A DNA stretch of 40,875 bases, from positions 2,144 through 43,018 of the forward strand of contig MEZD01000027.1 of NCBI GenBank assembly GCA_001775955.1, read 5' to 3'. Below, piece by piece: positions 26,737 through 33,633 of the stretch; positions within the stretch are counted from its first letter, which is position 1, and each line of letters begins with the position of its first letter. Under the pieces are notes generated by a model. It searched no databases. It was given only the letters and a program-made list of their open reading frames with translations, and was not told the origin of the DNA. This DNA is from Candidatus Bathyarchaeota archaeon RBG_13_38_9 (lineage in GTDB: Archaea > Thermoproteota > Bathyarchaeia > 40CM-2-53-6 > RBG-13-38-9). A program made the position numbers and the translations under genes.

Positions 26737-27081
26737 ACTGAAATATCTGTATTTGATGATAAAAAACTAATATTTCCAAATAGAATGGTTAATATGATGC
26801 GTATTACTTCAAAAGCGACATTCTTGAGTGCACTTCATTTACTCTATCTTCGAAACATTTTGAACTTATGAAATAACACTAATCGTACAGACAGAATTCT
26901 CTGGAGAAATCAACTTAGAGTATTTAATTCCTACGTTTCCACTGCAGATGAAAAGAAGTAGATTTGTGTCTATTTACAATCAAAAATTAACTATCTATGT
27001 TCAGATGTCATCATGAAATTATGGTTTTTTACAATTTTCTTATACAAATTTTCAAACATCTCAATGAAGTATGTGTTTCTT

Positions 27082-27112
27082 ACAAATTAGTTTGTAGAAT
27101 ACACAAATTGTG
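27082..27112. promoter_or_regulatory. Two adjacent inverted repeats (ACAAAttagTTTGT and CACAAaTTGTG) just upstream of the first ESCRT-III gene
   Basis: 27082-27095 and 27102-27112; centres about 18-19 bp apart; immediately before the ATG at 27123. Confidence 0.4.
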
Positions 27113-27122
27113 GTGCGAAAAA

Positions 27123-27791
27123 ATGGTGCGTGAAATAATAAAAAACTGGGACAGTAGCAGTAGAGAGTCAGTCGTTTCATTCTCACGTATATCGGGACAT
27201 ATCCGTTCTCCTTCCCCTATTAAAGAGAGGATCAATAAATCGATAATGCGTTTGAAAATTCAAGAGGGAAAGATTGAGAACTCCCTGATGAAATTGCAAA
27301 GGCATGACAAGAATCTGTTCAACAAGTGTGTTACCGCAAGGATTGGCAAAGATAGTTCTAGAGCAGCTATGTACGCTAGTGAGTGCGCAGAAATTCGAAA
27401 AATGGCTAAGACGACGCTAGGTTGCCAGTTAGCGCTTGAAAAGGCTGTCATAAGACTAGAGAATATTTTGATTCATGGAGAGAGTCTAAGTGCTATGGGT
27501 CCAGTCGCTGAAGTGGTCAAAGCAATTAAATCACAAATTGGCGGAATTATGCCTGACATCTCATATGAACTTGGACAAATAATGGAAAATCTAAATGAAA
27601 CCGCAATGGAAATGGGTGAAGTTACAAGCCAAACATATTATGAAGATACGCCAACAGCTGAAGCGCAAAAAATACTTACTGAAGCAAGTGCTGTCGCAGA
27701 TCAAAGAATGAATGAAAAATTCCCTGATTTACCAAACAGTTTTGCGGGTCCGATAAGGGCCAGATACGAAGAACCAGGTTCAAGTCAATAA
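27123..27791 (+). CDS. cdvB: ESCRT-III-like CdvB paralogue, no winged helix; ORF is open from 26997
   Basis: Snf7-like helices: SPIKERINKSIMRLKIQEGKIENSLMKLQRHDKNLFNKCVTA...ASECAEIRKMAKTTLGCQLALEKAVIRLE; MIM2-like KFPDLP near the C-terminus. Confidence 0.9.
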   Translation: MVREIIKNWDSSSRESVVSFSRISGHIRSPSPIKERINKSIMRLKIQEGKIENSLMKLQRHDKNLFNKCVTARIGKDSSRAAMYASECAEIRKMAKTTLGCQLALEKAVIRLENILIHGESLSAMGPVAEVVKAIKSQIGGIMPDISYELGQIMENLNETAMEMGEVTSQTYYEDTPTAEAQKILTEASAVADQRMNEKFPDLPNSFAGPIRARYEEPGSSQ

Positions 27792-27819
27792 TCCAATAAT
27801 TACTAATTGGTGTCTGATC

Positions 27820-28665
27820 ATGAGTCTTAATATGGATGATCTCTCAACGAAAATTGGAGAAATGGTCAAGGATTCTTCAGGAAAAGAACTTGGAAAACTG
27901 TTGGGTATTACTTCGGATGTCAAAGGCCATATCAGTAGTGTAACTGTTGAATTAGTGCATGGTGACTTTGTTAATATACCCAGTAATCGTTTAACAATGA
28001 AAAATAACTCTCCTATGGTTCTCCAGGATTGGATCGTTGAGGCAGAGGAGATCTCTCGAGAACTAGATTTGTTGAGAAGAAGAGATCGTGCTTTGATCGA
28101 GTTACGAGCTAGTGGTGATATTGACGAGTCAACTTATGACAGACTTAAGGATCAATACGGCCAAGCTAAAGATGAACTCTTGAAAAGGAGTGAAACTGTT
28201 ATCGATAAACTTGCAGAACGAGTTAAACAATTGGACGATCAGATTAAAACAGTTCAATCCTTGATGGCCAACAATAAGATGCAATATACCTCTGGAGAAA
28301 TAAATGAGAATGTTTACTGCAATGCAAATGAATCTATTCAAGGGGCATTAAAACGCTTTCACTTTGAGAGAGATGAACTTCTCGGAAAAATAAACGTGTT
28401 AATTTCTTCAAGAGATAGTGCAGAGGAACCTGTTCATCAGCAATATGAAGAAAAAGAACTTCCTATTATAGAACAAGTTGAATTGGCACCTACGGCTCAT
28501 CAGCAATATGAAGAAAAAGAATTTCTCTCTATAGGAAGTGTTGAATCAATAACTACGGCTCCACAGAAAGTTAACGTCAAATCAACAGAAGTAAATGGAA
28601 ACTCAAATGGGCTAACTAAAGTTCATAATCCAAGAGATATAGTAGTTGTACGTATGGAGCCCTGA
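27820..28665 (+). CDS. cdvA: CdvA-like protein: PRC-barrel, coiled coil, repeated linker and C-terminal ESCRT-binding-like tail
   Basis: 281 aa; GKELGKLLGITSDVKGHISSVTVELVHGDFVNIPSNRL (PRC-barrel), long coiled coil, tail NPRDIVVVRMEP. Confidence 0.87.
   Translation: MSLNMDDLSTKIGEMVKDSSGKELGKLLGITSDVKGHISSVTVELVHGDFVNIPSNRLTMKNNSPMVLQDWIVEAEEISRELDLLRRRDRALIELRASGDIDESTYDRLKDQYGQAKDELLKRSETVIDKLAERVKQLDDQIKTVQSLMANNKMQYTSGEINENVYCNANESIQGALKRFHFERDELLGKINVLISSRDSAEEPVHQQYEEKELPIIEQVELAPTAHQQYEEKEFLSIGSVESITTAPQKVNVKSTEVNGNSNGLTKVHNPRDIVVVRMEP
28435..28560 (+). repeat. Tandem 63-bp in-frame duplication in the CdvA linker
   Basis: HQQYEEKELPIIEQVELAPTA / HQQYEEKEFLSIGSVESITTA; catcagcaatatgaagaaaaagaa is identical in both copies, 63 bp apart. 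Confidence 0.85.
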
Positions 28666-28683
28666 TAGAGGTCAGATGTTCCC

Positions 28684-29514
28684 TTGCCCAAATGGAAAGG
28701 TTTGGGGTCCAGAGTCCAGCCTTCCATGAATGAAATTATTCCTGAAATTCGTTATAAATTAGGTAATCAGAAAGAGAAGTTAGAGGACGTAGCGGAGAGA
28801 CTATACCAACGTGATAAAGAAATATTGCAAAGATGTGTTGGTGCCCAACTGTGTGGCGACGATGATCGTTCTAAGATTTTTGCAAATGAATGTGCCGAAA
28901 TAAGAAGAATGTATACTACTGTAAAGGCCGTTCAAATTTCATTAGAAAAAGTAATAATAAGATTCGATTCAATATCTCTATTCGAAGATGCGTTTGTTCA
29001 AATAAAGCCAGTAATGGAAATAGTTAGGAGTATGAGAGGAGATGTTGAGGGATTAGCGCCTGAAGTAGCTAAAGAGCTAGATGGAATAAATTCAGTCCTT
29101 GAAGATATTCATTCTGGAACTGGGCAAGTTTCTCCGATTAATTTTGAATTAGATCTTGCAGGTGAAGAGGCTACACGGGTGCTGGAAGAATCGAAGTTAG
29201 TTGCAAGCCAAAAGGCAAGTGAGAGATTTCCTGAACTCCCAATACAATCAAAGGGATTGGAGCAGAAAGATTTAACAGAAATTCTCAAGGATTCTGAAGA
29301 TGTTTTACATGAGAATGGTGAGGAGAAATTTATACACTCGAAGTCTGAATCTATGGTTCTGGAAGAAGTATTATCCTATATCAAGTCAAAAGAAGGTCGA
29401 TTATCAGTGAAAGATTGTGCGAACTCTCTTTCAATCCATACGAATGATGTCCTTACAGCAATTGACAGTCTAAAAGAACAAGGAAAGCTTGTCATTGAGA
29501 GAGAGGCAGAATAG
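28684..29514 (+). CDS. cdvB: ESCRT-III-like CdvB with C-terminal winged helix, TTG start
   Basis: 276 aa; ESCRT-III core ...KEILQRCVGAQLCGDDDRSKIFANECAEIRRMYTTVKAVQISLEKV; MIM2-like RFPELP; C-terminal SMVLEEVLSYIKSKEGRLSVKDCANSLSIHTNDVLTAIDSLKEQGKLVIE. Confidence 0.9.
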   Translation: MPKWKGLGSRVQPSMNEIIPEIRYKLGNQKEKLEDVAERLYQRDKEILQRCVGAQLCGDDDRSKIFANECAEIRRMYTTVKAVQISLEKVIIRFDSISLFEDAFVQIKPVMEIVRSMRGDVEGLAPEVAKELDGINSVLEDIHSGTGQVSPINFELDLAGEEATRVLEESKLVASQKASERFPELPIQSKGLEQKDLTEILKDSEDVLHENGEEKFIHSKSESMVLEEVLSYIKSKEGRLSVKDCANSLSIHTNDVLTAIDSLKEQGKLVIEREAE

Positions 29515-29543
29515 TTTAATTTGTAAATTTTAGGTGAAGTACT

Positions 29544-30695
29544 TTGTCTGCAACAGAAGAATTAGAACAAATTGCCGTAAAATATGCAACCGAGGCTATC
29601 AGGCTTGATAAACAAGGATCCAGAGGACTTGCAATAGTAAAGTATCAAAAATCAATCGAGATTTTATTCAAGTTATGTTCTCTTTATCCAAATTCCTCTC
29701 AAAATCATGTGTATATGGAACATGTTGAATCATACAGAAAAAGAATCAAAGAGATCCAAAATAAAGTAAATCATCAAGAACCTGTAGAGAGTGCACCATC
29801 TGGTAGTGAAGCAAAATTTGAGCAACTTGTACTAACCGAAAAACCAGATGTCCGATGGGAAGATATTGCAAACTTGATTGAAGCAAAAAGAGCTATTGAA
29901 GAGTCCATAATATATCCGGTGAGGAGATCTGACCTCTTTCCTTTGGGATGGCATAGGGGTATACTCTTCTTTGGGCCGCCTGGATGTGGTAAGACGCTAT
30001 TAGCAGCTGCAATTGCGACAGAGATCAATGCTTCGTTCTTTTGTGTCGATGCACAATCAATAATGTCAAAATGGCTTGGGGAATCTGAAAAAAACGTAGC
30101 CCATCTGTTTGAAGAGGCGAGACAAGTAAGCTCACAAGGAAAGCCAGCGATAATATTTATCGACGAAATCGATTCGTTAGTTGGAATCCGATCTCAAGAA
30201 GTTGGTGGTGAAGTAAGAACTAGAAATCAGTTTCTAAAAGAAATGGATGGTGTAGTTGATAAGAAGAAAAATCCTCAAATATATGTAATTGGAGCGACAA
30301 ACAAGCCATGGGCTTTAGATGATCCATTTAGGAGAAGATTCCAAAAGAGGATATTCGTACCCTTACCGGAGGCAGATGCAAGGCTTGAAATGTTAAGGAT
30401 TTTTTCGAGAAAGCTTGGGAAATCTCTAGCCCTTTCTGAAGATGTGGACTTTGACTCCCTTGTAAAAATGACTCAAGGCCATTCTGGTAGCGATATTTTG
30501 AATAATTTCCAAGGCGCTCAAGCAATAGTGGTCAGAGAATTTTTTGAGAACGGAAATCCTAATGATGAACAGGCTAAACCTAGACCAATAACAATGAAAG
30601 ATTTCAACGACGTTCTTCGTGTTAGACGTCCCAGTGTAGATCAAAGCTTGATAGTTAATTATCTAAAATGGTCTGAACAATATCAGGCTGCATGA
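29544..30695 (+). CDS. cdvC: CdvC / Vps4-like AAA ATPase with N-terminal MIT domain, TTG start
   Basis: 383 aa; MIT-like helices (YATEAIRLDKQGSRGLAIVKYQKSIEIL), Walker A GPPGCGKTLLA, Walker B IIFIDEIDSL, DPFRRRFQKRI. Confidence 0.95.
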   Translation: MSATEELEQIAVKYATEAIRLDKQGSRGLAIVKYQKSIEILFKLCSLYPNSSQNHVYMEHVESYRKRIKEIQNKVNHQEPVESAPSGSEAKFEQLVLTEKPDVRWEDIANLIEAKRAIEESIIYPVRRSDLFPLGWHRGILFFGPPGCGKTLLAAAIATEINASFFCVDAQSIMSKWLGESEKNVAHLFEEARQVSSQGKPAIIFIDEIDSLVGIRSQEVGGEVRTRNQFLKEMDGVVDKKKNPQIYVIGATNKPWALDDPFRRRFQKRIFVPLPEADARLEMLRIFSRKLGKSLALSEDVDFDSLVKMTQGHSGSDILNNFQGAQAIVVREFFENGNPNDEQAKPRPITMKDFNDVLRVRRPSVDQSLIVNYLKWSEQYQAA

Positions 30696-30710
30696 GGAGA
30701 AAATGTTATA

Positions 30711-31217
30711 GTGAAAACAATCAATTCAAAAGACCTGAAAATCCTTTCGGAGTTAGTTCATAATTCAAAAGCAACATTAACAAACCTAGGCGATAAACTT
30801 GGATTACATCCAAATGTGGTCGCATATAGAATAAATAAACTTGAGAATCTTGGAATAATACGTGACTATACAGTAAATCTTGATCTTGAGAAACTTGGTC
30901 TATTTGAACAAGTCTACTTAGGAGCAAGTTTTCCCGCAAATTCTAAACGTGACACAGTAATAAGACAAATTTCTGATCTTCCACAAACAATTACAGTAGT
31001 AAGTTCTTTTGGATCGCCAGAAGTCATCTTTCATCTTATTGGTAAAAGTAAAGAAGATATTGACAAAGTCATAACAAAACTTAGAGAATACAATGTCAAG
31101 ATAGATTATGCAGCATCAGTTATCAAGACATATCAAAATGGAGGTATTGGCGGCTTTCTGAAGAATATGGCTGACGGAATAGAGACGGATGTTAGGGGTG
31201 AAACTCAGGATGGCTAG
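30711..31217 (+). CDS. Lrp/AsnC-like transcriptional regulator
   Basis: 168 aa; N-terminal HTH DLKILSELVHNSKATLTNLGDKLGLHPNVVAYRINKLENLGIIRDYTV and a C-terminal RAM-like domain. Confidence 0.85.
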   Translation: MKTINSKDLKILSELVHNSKATLTNLGDKLGLHPNVVAYRINKLENLGIIRDYTVNLDLEKLGLFEQVYLGASFPANSKRDTVIRQISDLPQTITVVSSFGSPEVIFHLIGKSKEDIDKVITKLREYNVKIDYAASVIKTYQNGGIGGFLKNMADGIETDVRGETQDG

Positions 31218-31701
31218 TTATACACTATTATTGAAATTATTTAGCAAACCAGAATATCGTTCATTTCTATCTGTAGTAATGATTTCTGTTCTTACGATAA
31301 TCATGTGGTTCGTAATAGCGAAAGAAATCGGACATTACGTAAGATCCATCATGATGGTGACGATATTTGTGGCAATCTCGGCGTTGGCACTTAACGAAAC
31401 TGTTGCTAGTTTCACTAATAGAAGACGAGACATCGCGATATTAATTGCTGTGGGAATATGGAAGCACCTAATTGGAGGAATACTGCTTTTAAAAACAATC
31501 GTGTATACGTCAATCGGCTGGACACTCGGAATGATTATAGCATATCTCCTGGGATGGCTAGGAGGTATCTCTAACAACATTGTACTCCAACAAATTGCAC
31601 TATTTGCAACAGTACTCGTCTTAGGGCCAACTATTGTGGCTGGAATCTCTTGTATATTTCATACATCTCGATTTAATGTTCCGGAGGTTCTCAGACAATG
31701 A
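31210..31701 (+). CDS. Minimal FtsX/MacB-type ABC permease, about 4 TM, no large extracellular loop; ORF is open from 31189
   Basis: About 163 aa; four hydrophobic segments; FtsX-like signature SFTNRRRDIAILIAVGIWKHLIGGILLLKTIVYTSIGWTLGMIIAYLLGW; stop overlaps the start of the ATPase gene (ATGA). Confidence 0.75.
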   Translation: MASYTLLLKLFSKPEYRSFLSVVMISVLTIIMWFVIAKEIGHYVRSIMMVTIFVAISALALNETVASFTNRRRDIAILIAVGIWKHLIGGILLLKTIVYTSIGWTLGMIIAYLLGWLGGISNNIVLQQIALFATVLVLGPTIVAGISCIFHTSRFNVPEVLRQ

Positions 31702-32393
31702 CTGATGATCGTAAAAGAACTGCTGTTTCTGTGAGAGACCTTCACAAAAATTTTGAAAGTGGTTATTCAGAGACACGTCTATTCAATGGATTAAGTTTCG
31801 ATATTAATGAAGGGGATTTCGTTGCCATTACAGGATCGTCTGGAACAGGAAAAACGACTTTGATGAATCTTATTGCTGGCTTGGATAAACCGACGAAGGG
31901 CACAATAAGAGTGCTGGGTAAAGAACTTTCTTTACTTAATGATCGAGAGTTAACTGCACTGAGAGCGGAATCAATTGGTATTCTCTTCCAAACTTTTGGA
32001 TTACTGACTGATTTGAACGTTAAAGAAAACATCAAGGTTACCCAGATGATCACTGGAAAGAATAATTCGGACAGAGAAAGATATTCAGATGAATTACTAG
32101 AATTCTTTGGTCTTAACAATAAAGCTGATTTCAATCCTTCCAGCCTGAGTGTTGGAGAAGCAAAAAAAGTTGGAATAGCAAGAGCCCTTTCGACTGGACC
32201 TCAGGTACTTCTTTTGGATGAGCCGACAGGTAACCTCGATCCCCAATCGGTTAATGTTCTTTTACCGATTCTTCGAGGATTAAGACACATCTATGGAAAA
32301 ACGATCATTATGACTACAAATACACCTCGTGCTGCTAAAATAGCCAATCGTGAGATCCACATTGAAAAACCAAAAATAATTCCAATTATGTGA
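31698..32393 (+). CDS. ABC transporter ATPase, LolD/FtsE/MacB type
   Basis: 231 aa; Walker A GSSGTGKTTL, LLTDLNVKENI, signature LSVGEAKKVGIARAL, Walker B VLLLDEPTGNLD. Confidence 0.93.
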   Translation: MTDDRKRTAVSVRDLHKNFESGYSETRLFNGLSFDINEGDFVAITGSSGTGKTTLMNLIAGLDKPTKGTIRVLGKELSLLNDRELTALRAESIGILFQTFGLLTDLNVKENIKVTQMITGKNNSDRERYSDELLEFFGLNNKADFNPSSLSVGEAKKVGIARALSTGPQVLLLDEPTGNLDPQSVNVLLPILRGLRHIYGKTIIMTTNTPRAAKIANREIHIEKPKIIPIM

Positions 32394-32394
32394 T

Positions 32395-33021
32395 GTGATA
32401 AAAATGTTCAGGTATAAACCATCTTGGAGTGAAAGGTTTAAGGAAGCAATACACCCAACTCCCATGAAGCGCAGACTCAATAATGCGATTCATAGGATAT
32501 CCGTTCAGATGCGGCGAATTGATTCTCAGACTAATCGTCTAGAATCTCGAGAAAAAAATCTATACACAAAATGTGTTGGAGCAATACAAGCAAAGGATAA
32601 CACGAAGGCATCAATGTATGCTGATGAATGTGCTGAACTTAGAAAAATGGTTCTTAACACATTAAAGAGCGAAATGGCTCTTGAACGAGTCAGCCTAAAA
32701 CTTACAAGAGTCAGAGATTTTGGGGAATTAGCGTATAATATGACTTCTGTAGGAGCCATAATGAAACAGATCAAAGATGGCATTCAGAATATAATGCCTG
32801 AAATATCTATGGAGCTTGCAAATGTCAACGAGACCTTACAATCTATTTGCCTCGAAGTCGGTGGAGTTACCGAACAAACAATAGATTATGATACCCCAAC
32901 AGAAGAATCAGAAAAAATTCTGAAAGAAGCTGCATTAGTAGCTGAACAGAAGATGCAAGAAAGATTCCCAGACATGCCTATAATTCCTTCTCCAGAACCA
33001 GATTCTTCTGTACAAGACTAG
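32395..33021 (+). CDS. cdvB: ESCRT-III-like CdvB paralogue, no winged helix; start GTG 32395 or ATG 32404
   Basis: 208 aa; closely resembles the product of 27123-27791 (ADECAELRKMVLNTLKSEMALERVSLKL; IMPEISMELANVNETLQ); MIM2-like RFPDMP. Confidence 0.9.
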   Translation: MIKMFRYKPSWSERFKEAIHPTPMKRRLNNAIHRISVQMRRIDSQTNRLESREKNLYTKCVGAIQAKDNTKASMYADECAELRKMVLNTLKSEMALERVSLKLTRVRDFGELAYNMTSVGAIMKQIKDGIQNIMPEISMELANVNETLQSICLEVGGVTEQTIDYDTPTEESEKILKEAALVAEQKMQERFPDMPIIPSPEPDSSVQD

Positions 33022-33633
33022 GTGAATAAAATGATGACTGAACTTTCTGAGCCAGAATTGAAAGGTTTTCTTGGTAAACAAATATCGGATACATACGGCC
33101 GGAGATTAGGAACTATCATAGGTGTGACGTTAAATGATTTTGGTGAGATGCAATCCTTAGAACTTGAGAAGGGAAACAATGAATTACAACGATTGTCATT
33201 CGATCAAATCTCGATGGATAGAGATAAAATAATAGCTGTTTCAAAATGGAAGATACAAATAGAATCACTACTAAAAGAGATGGATTCGGCACAACGAAGA
33301 TTGGTCGCATTAAGTGACCTTCTTAAGCGCAAAGAGATCCCGAGAAATCTCTATGATGAATTAACACAAAAACATGAAGAAGCAATAAAAAATCTTAAAT
33401 CAAAGAAAACCGCGACCATAGAAATAATTCAAAGTAGAGAAAAAGAATTGGATAGACAGATAGAAGATTTGACGAAAATATTAATTGAATTAAAAGCTGG
33501 AAAATGGTCAGATGAGTTCTCTACTAAAGTCTATGAAGTGGCTTCAAATTCGATAGAACCAAATCTCGAATATGTGGCCAAAGAAAAGAGGGACTTGGCA
33601 GATCATATTGCCGAATTAACTAAGTTGTTTTGA
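33022..33633 (+). CDS. cdvA: CdvA-like protein (PRC-barrel + coiled coil), short form
   Basis: 203 aa; LKGFLGKQISDTYGRRLGTIIGVTLNDFGEMQSLELEKGNNELQRLSFDQI plus coiled coil; lacks the C-terminal tail seen in the first CdvA. Confidence 0.82.
   Translation: MNKMMTELSEPELKGFLGKQISDTYGRRLGTIIGVTLNDFGEMQSLELEKGNNELQRLSFDQISMDRDKIIAVSKWKIQIESLLKEMDSAQRRLVALSDLLKRKEIPRNLYDELTQKHEEAIKNLKSKKTATIEIIQSREKELDRQIEDLTKILIELKAGKWSDEFSTKVYEVASNSIEPNLEYVAKEKRDLADHIAELTKLF

Follow-up and report, generated by a model that had tools for sequence, protein, structure and literature searches.

Gene content of the Cdv locus

The window, a stretch of 40,875 nucleotides from Candidatus Bathyarchaeota archaeon RBG_13_38_9 (contig MEZD01000027.1), carries on its forward strand an operon-like run of genes in the order CdvB-CdvA-CdvB-CdvC/Vps4-Lrp-mini-FtsX-ATPase-CdvB1-CdvA2. 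The run opens with a CdvB-type ESCRT-III protein (27123..27791), which has 222 aa as in its relatives and lies in a frame open from position 26997. It is followed by CdvA with its coiled-coil domain (27820..28665), by a CdvB ESCRT-III protein whose C-terminal region weakly matches winged-helix families (28684..29514), and by the AAA ATPase CdvC/Vps4 with an MIT domain (29544..30695). An Lrp/AsnC-like regulator (30711..31217) lies directly 5' of the mini-FtsX permease (31210..31701) and its ABC ATPase partner (31698..32393); we refer to these last two genes as the cassette. Downstream are a CdvB1/B2-type ESCRT-III protein (Snf7) of 205 aa when read from the conserved ATG (32404..33021; a GTG at 32395 is a possible start) and a second CdvA-like protein, CdvA2, with a PRC-barrel and a coiled coil (33022..33633). 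With three CdvB-type and two CdvA-type paralogues in a single run (26997-33633), this is an unusually complete Cdv cluster. As in the known Cdv system of Thermoproteota, CdvA, CdvB, CdvB1/2 and CdvC are all present.

The mini-FtsX gene

The initial annotation had placed a short permease and its ATPase at 31189-32393. The open reading frame of the permease proved to be real, but its start was revised: the likely start is the ATG at 31210, which gives a protein of 163 aa, and the in-frame ATG at 31189 (170 aa) is less likely. The downstream start was preferred because GGGGTGA, which resembles a ribosome site, lies just 5' of it, and because a relative (L010) starts at the equivalent position. 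The first 8 nt of the permease gene overlap the end of the Lrp gene, and its last 4 nt are shared with the start of the ATPase gene (ATGA at 31698). Within the genus the dN/dS of mini-FtsX was 0.22-0.32, which marks it as a coding gene under purifying selection.

Two irregular cases were seen among the relatives. A variant in L061 (4136-4570) and L147 has an open frame, but no ATG, GTG or TTG start that would cover TM1; an unusual start codon is possible. The G016 bin holds two differing mini-FtsX genes (C92:5819-6280 and C85:6452-6883, frames of 155 and 144 aa), which represent either a second cluster or contamination.

Predicted fold and the missing outside domain

The permease has four TM helices; in the hydropathy profile the first (TM1) spans residues 19-37 and the second (TM2) residues 43-61. 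The gap between them, in the AKEIGHYVRS region, is about 5-10 residues, which bears out the earlier statement that only some ten residues separate the two helices. The genome also encodes ordinary FtsX-like permeases, and in two of them, of 424 and 412 aa, the same method gave about 240 and 250 residues between TM1 and TM2.

The Pfam family FtsX (PF02687) matched residues 47-147 of mini-FtsX with an E-value of 5.4e-5 and 23.7 bits, just below the curated cut-off of 25.5 bits, and matched 10 of 20 members of the mini-FtsX family (best E-value 1.2e-11). When the family profile was compared with PDB sequences, it matched HrtB, LolF, YtrF and MacB with E-values from 1e-6 to 1e-3, HrtB being the best; it also matched many ordinary FtsX-like permeases in related genomes. 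Classic permease motifs were found at the coupling helix (NRRRDIAILIAVG) and at the C-terminus (SRFNVPEVLR).

Two AlphaFold2 models gave the same order of helices: N-terminal helix, TM1, TM2, coupling helix, TM3, TM4 and C-terminal helix. A type VII permease is defined by a PF02687 core of four TM helices in which a coupling helix lies on the cytoplasmic side, after TM2 and before TM3. The model of the window protein was moderate (pLDDT 70, pTM 0.52), and its best PDB fold matches were LolE, YtrF and HrtB. The best model was obtained for family-2 members (pLDDT 80, pTM 0.78), and its four best PDB matches were all bacterial FtsX, from three structures (8x61, 8tzj and 8hd0). Foldseek gave no E-value below 1e-3 for these models, which is not surprising for a membrane protein of four helices, but the best matches were consistently type VII permeases. 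The comparison with FtsX, LolC/E and MacB proposed by the initial annotation returned FtsX, LolE, HrtB and MacB. Pfam, the PDB profile matches and the predicted structures agree in assigning mini-FtsX the FtsX/type VII ABC permease fold without an extracellular domain, as that annotation had suggested. The name FtsX denotes the fold here and does not imply orthology with FtsX, which is not proven.

The outside domain might instead be supplied by a separate gene. Some type VII systems leave the work outside the cell to an accessory protein, as FtsEX does with EnvC. However, no gene for a separate extracellular domain was found in the Cdv cluster of any genome examined, that of the window included, and so short a hairpin of TM1 and TM2 offers little surface for docking. 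It is therefore very improbable that the pair belongs to a complete FtsX-like system with its extracellular part encoded by an unlinked gene.

The initial annotation considered the short loop to fit an organism without peptidoglycan. The absence of peptidoglycan was supported, since neither FtsW/RodA nor a transpeptidase was found in 38 genomes of the order. As the cause of the loss it was not supported: the same cells have ordinary FtsX-like permeases with outside domains of about 240 residues, so the lack of peptidoglycan is not by itself a sufficient explanation.

The ATPase partner

The partner gene encodes an ABC ATPase of the FtsE/LolD/MacB type with 231 aa, as judged by profile scores and motif reading. 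It scored 185 bits with LolD, 183 with MacB and 175 with FtsE (TIGR02673, 174.6), all far below the equivalog cut-offs (264.85 bits for FtsE, TIGR02673; 307.75 bits for LolD, TIGR02211). Because it fails the equivalog tests for FtsE, LolD and MacB alike, the module was not classed as FtsEX proper.

The window ATPase keeps Walker A, the Q-loop, the signature (LSVGE) and Walker B, but the switch histidine of the H-loop is replaced by Asn208. This histidine was missing in all 26 distinct Cdv-linked ATPases, which keep the other nucleotide-binding motifs; its place is taken by Asn in nine (families f1 and f6) and by Ala in 17 (family f2). It was present in 25 of 25 ABC ATPases with a readable site from other fetched loci, mostly neighbours of ordinary FtsX-like permeases. 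The Cdv-linked ATPases formed a single clade (support 94/93), so the loss was probably one old event; it has been maintained in the clade, while the replacement residue has changed since. The sister of this clade was the ATPase of genome G213 (support 99/97). Neither the missing histidine nor the Cdv/ESCRT-III operon setting had been mentioned in the initial annotation.

Mutation of the H-loop histidine to alanine leaves HlyB with less than 0.1% activity, and an H-loop mutant of MsbA retains 8%, but Pdr5 without the histidine keeps its ATPase activity, so hydrolysis is not always abolished (PMC6222333). Slow or conditional hydrolysis is likely in the Cdv-linked ATPases.

These features bear on whether the pair could be a small lipid or amphiphile exporter, like LolCDE, YbbAP or HrtBA, that aids membrane bending by ESCRT-III by extracting or flipping lipids where the cell divides, with its place in the operon reflecting the same time and place of use. 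The top scores of the ATPase were with LolD and MacB, and the solved relatives of the permease include the HrtBA heme exporter and LolF; YbbAP is reported to extract hydrophobic compounds from the membrane (PMC12646458). However, the permease has no outside domain for passing on cargo, there is no partner gene, and the catalytic switch histidine has consistently been lost, which speaks against a turnover pump. We therefore regard an exporter as rather unlikely.

Distribution and conservation of the cassette

The order CdvC-Lrp-mini-FtsX-ATPase-CdvB1 was found in 28 genomes from three Bathyarchaeia families, intact in 25 and cut by contig ends in three. Family f1 contributed eight intact and one cut, f2 16 intact and two cut, and f6 a single intact genome. 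The gene order persists although permease identity falls to about 10-30%, and the Cdv-linked permease frames span 144-189 aa. Strong divergence caused the f2 permease to be missed by the first profile; it was recovered as the open reading frame between Lrp and ATPase.

Within the class Bathyarchaeia, all mini-FtsX matches with E-values below 1e-35 were frames of 144-189 aa inside the Cdv operon. The remaining matches were nearly all about 380 aa or longer, the exceptions being a 169-aa frame in G213 and a few cut or broken stretches. Across 398 sampled genomes of the phylum, strong matches occurred only in this Bathyarchaeia order, and the others were mostly full-size permeases.

At the other intact Cdv loci of this taxonomic order, in families f3, f4 and f5 and in genome G029, CdvB1 follows directly after Lrp or CdvC and leaves no room for the pair. 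Since these sister families divide with the same Cdv core, the cassette is an accessory and not a core part. When its presence was mapped on the CdvC tree, at least two changes were needed; L087 sat on a long, unsure branch.

Another possibility is that the pair is a passenger: a functionally unrelated ABC cassette, for instance one tied to the Lrp regulator, that was caught in a highly expressed operon. Its absence from f3-f5 and G029, where the Cdv core is visibly undisturbed, would fit this, as would the occurrence of a related pair outside the Cdv cluster in G213. Against it, the slot between Lrp and CdvB1 has been kept in three families despite great divergence, with translational overlaps, and, of the sequences compared, only those in the Cdv-linked clade show the change in the ATPase. 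On this evidence a passenger is unlikely.

The G213 pair (L162:6044-7421) consists of the 169-aa mini-FtsX and an ATPase whose H-loop region is masked, and it adjoins two pilin-like genes and a TadC/FlaJ-like gene. Two apparent irregularities of the cassette were rejected. Its absence from G020 and G022 was not accepted, as their contigs stop before the slot. A 452-aa frame in G001 that would fuse ATPase and CdvB1 crosses masked N bases, and G002, of the same genus, has ATPase and CdvB1 as two genes.

Proposed role in ESCRT-III division

The pair at 31210-32393 is, with fair probability, a minimal type VII ABC module, similar to FtsEX, that is now part of the Cdv (ESCRT-III) division machinery of one Bathyarchaeia lineage. 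At the level of sequence and predicted structure, the analysis establishes that the permease has the type VII fold and lacks an outside domain, that the pair holds a lasting place in the Cdv operon, and that its ATPase has consistently lost the switch histidine but none of the other nucleotide-binding motifs. For the Cdv role we counted the same gene order in f1, f2 and f6, the one ATPase clade, the histidine loss in 26 of 26, the translational overlaps from Lrp through permease to ATPase, and the PDB fold matches. Against it we counted the pTM of 0.52 for the window model, Foldseek E-values that never fell below 1e-3, the Pdr5 precedent, the missing cassette in sister families and the G213 pair outside Cdv.

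The best reading is that the pair binds ATP and serves ESCRT-III division as a membrane switch or anchor, by a mechanism that we infer, and it is probably not a transporter. Two permeases and two ATPases would assemble as a membrane complex. ATP binding would close the ATPase dimer, the ATP-bound state would be long-lived, and hydrolysis would be slow or triggered by a partner. The change of state could then work at the inner membrane face, where it would anchor, load or release the neighbouring CdvB1/CdvA2 filaments in constriction. Such a module would be comparable to bacterial FtsEX, a signalling ABC complex coupled to the division ring, but would face the cytoplasmic ESCRT-III ring and not outside wall hydrolases. 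More tentatively, and with somewhat less than even confidence, we propose that it is a membrane clamp that binds ATP, hardly hydrolyses it and ties ESCRT-III assembly to the membrane, so that an FtsEX-type complex controls an ESCRT-type ring. A mini-FtsEX inside an ESCRT-type division operon suggests that one branch of the uncultured Bathyarchaeia has brought together two toolkits for division.

Relation to known systems

Like bacterial FtsEX, the pair has the permease fold, a separate ATPase gene and a tie to the division apparatus, which for the Cdv pair is operon membership. Unlike FtsEX, it has no extracellular domain and no switch histidine in the ATPase, it scores below the FtsE equivalog cut-off, and its partners are Cdv/ESCRT-III and not FtsZ; control of hydrolases, a mark of FtsEX, does not apply in a host without peptidoglycan. 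With LolCDE/LolDF it shares permease core motifs and the top ATPase score, but LolC/E have a large periplasmic domain, and 185 bits is well short of the LolD cut-off. The four-TM type VII core is also that of HrtBA and MacB, whereas HrtB has 344 aa and MacB about 650 aa with a fused ATPase, compared with 163 aa for mini-FtsX.

Literature searches found no paper describing an FtsX-type permease as a Cdv component or in a Cdv operon. A TM protein and an ABC ATPase have been reported in some Asgard snf7/vps4 operons, in one sentence of a main text that gives no family, size or catalytic residues (PMC11237479). There too an ABC ATPase and a membrane protein adjoin archaeal ESCRT-III and Vps4 genes, a likeness of description only, and this sentence somewhat lowers the novelty of the Cdv-linked pair.

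It is still an open question how archaeal ESCRT-III rings are attached to the membrane and controlled there, and a study of Cdv domain architectures left ancestral membrane tethering unclear (PMC8970359). A membrane protein and an ATPase conserved in the division operon of a lineage are a concrete candidate. If the proposed role is true, an FtsEX-type switch can serve a division machine that has neither an FtsZ ring nor a cell wall, and its essential part is the membrane core, not the outside domain.

Other genes associated with the Cdv locus

FtsZ-like tubulin genes were present in many f1 and f2 genomes, and none was found in f4, f5 or f6. A link between cassette and FtsZ was rejected: the correlation was weak, and the tubulin was not found in the cassette-bearing genomes G005, G006 and G037. 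The contig of the window itself encodes a divergent FtsZ-like tubulin (G000:C27:389-1207, about 0.9-1.8 kb upstream of the window start) in a frame of 459 aa, which scored 116 bits against a cut-off of 295. The Lrp/AsnC-like gene stays beside the Cdv genes even in genomes without the cassette (G029, G030, G031 and G036), and its product may be a regulator of the Cdv division operon.
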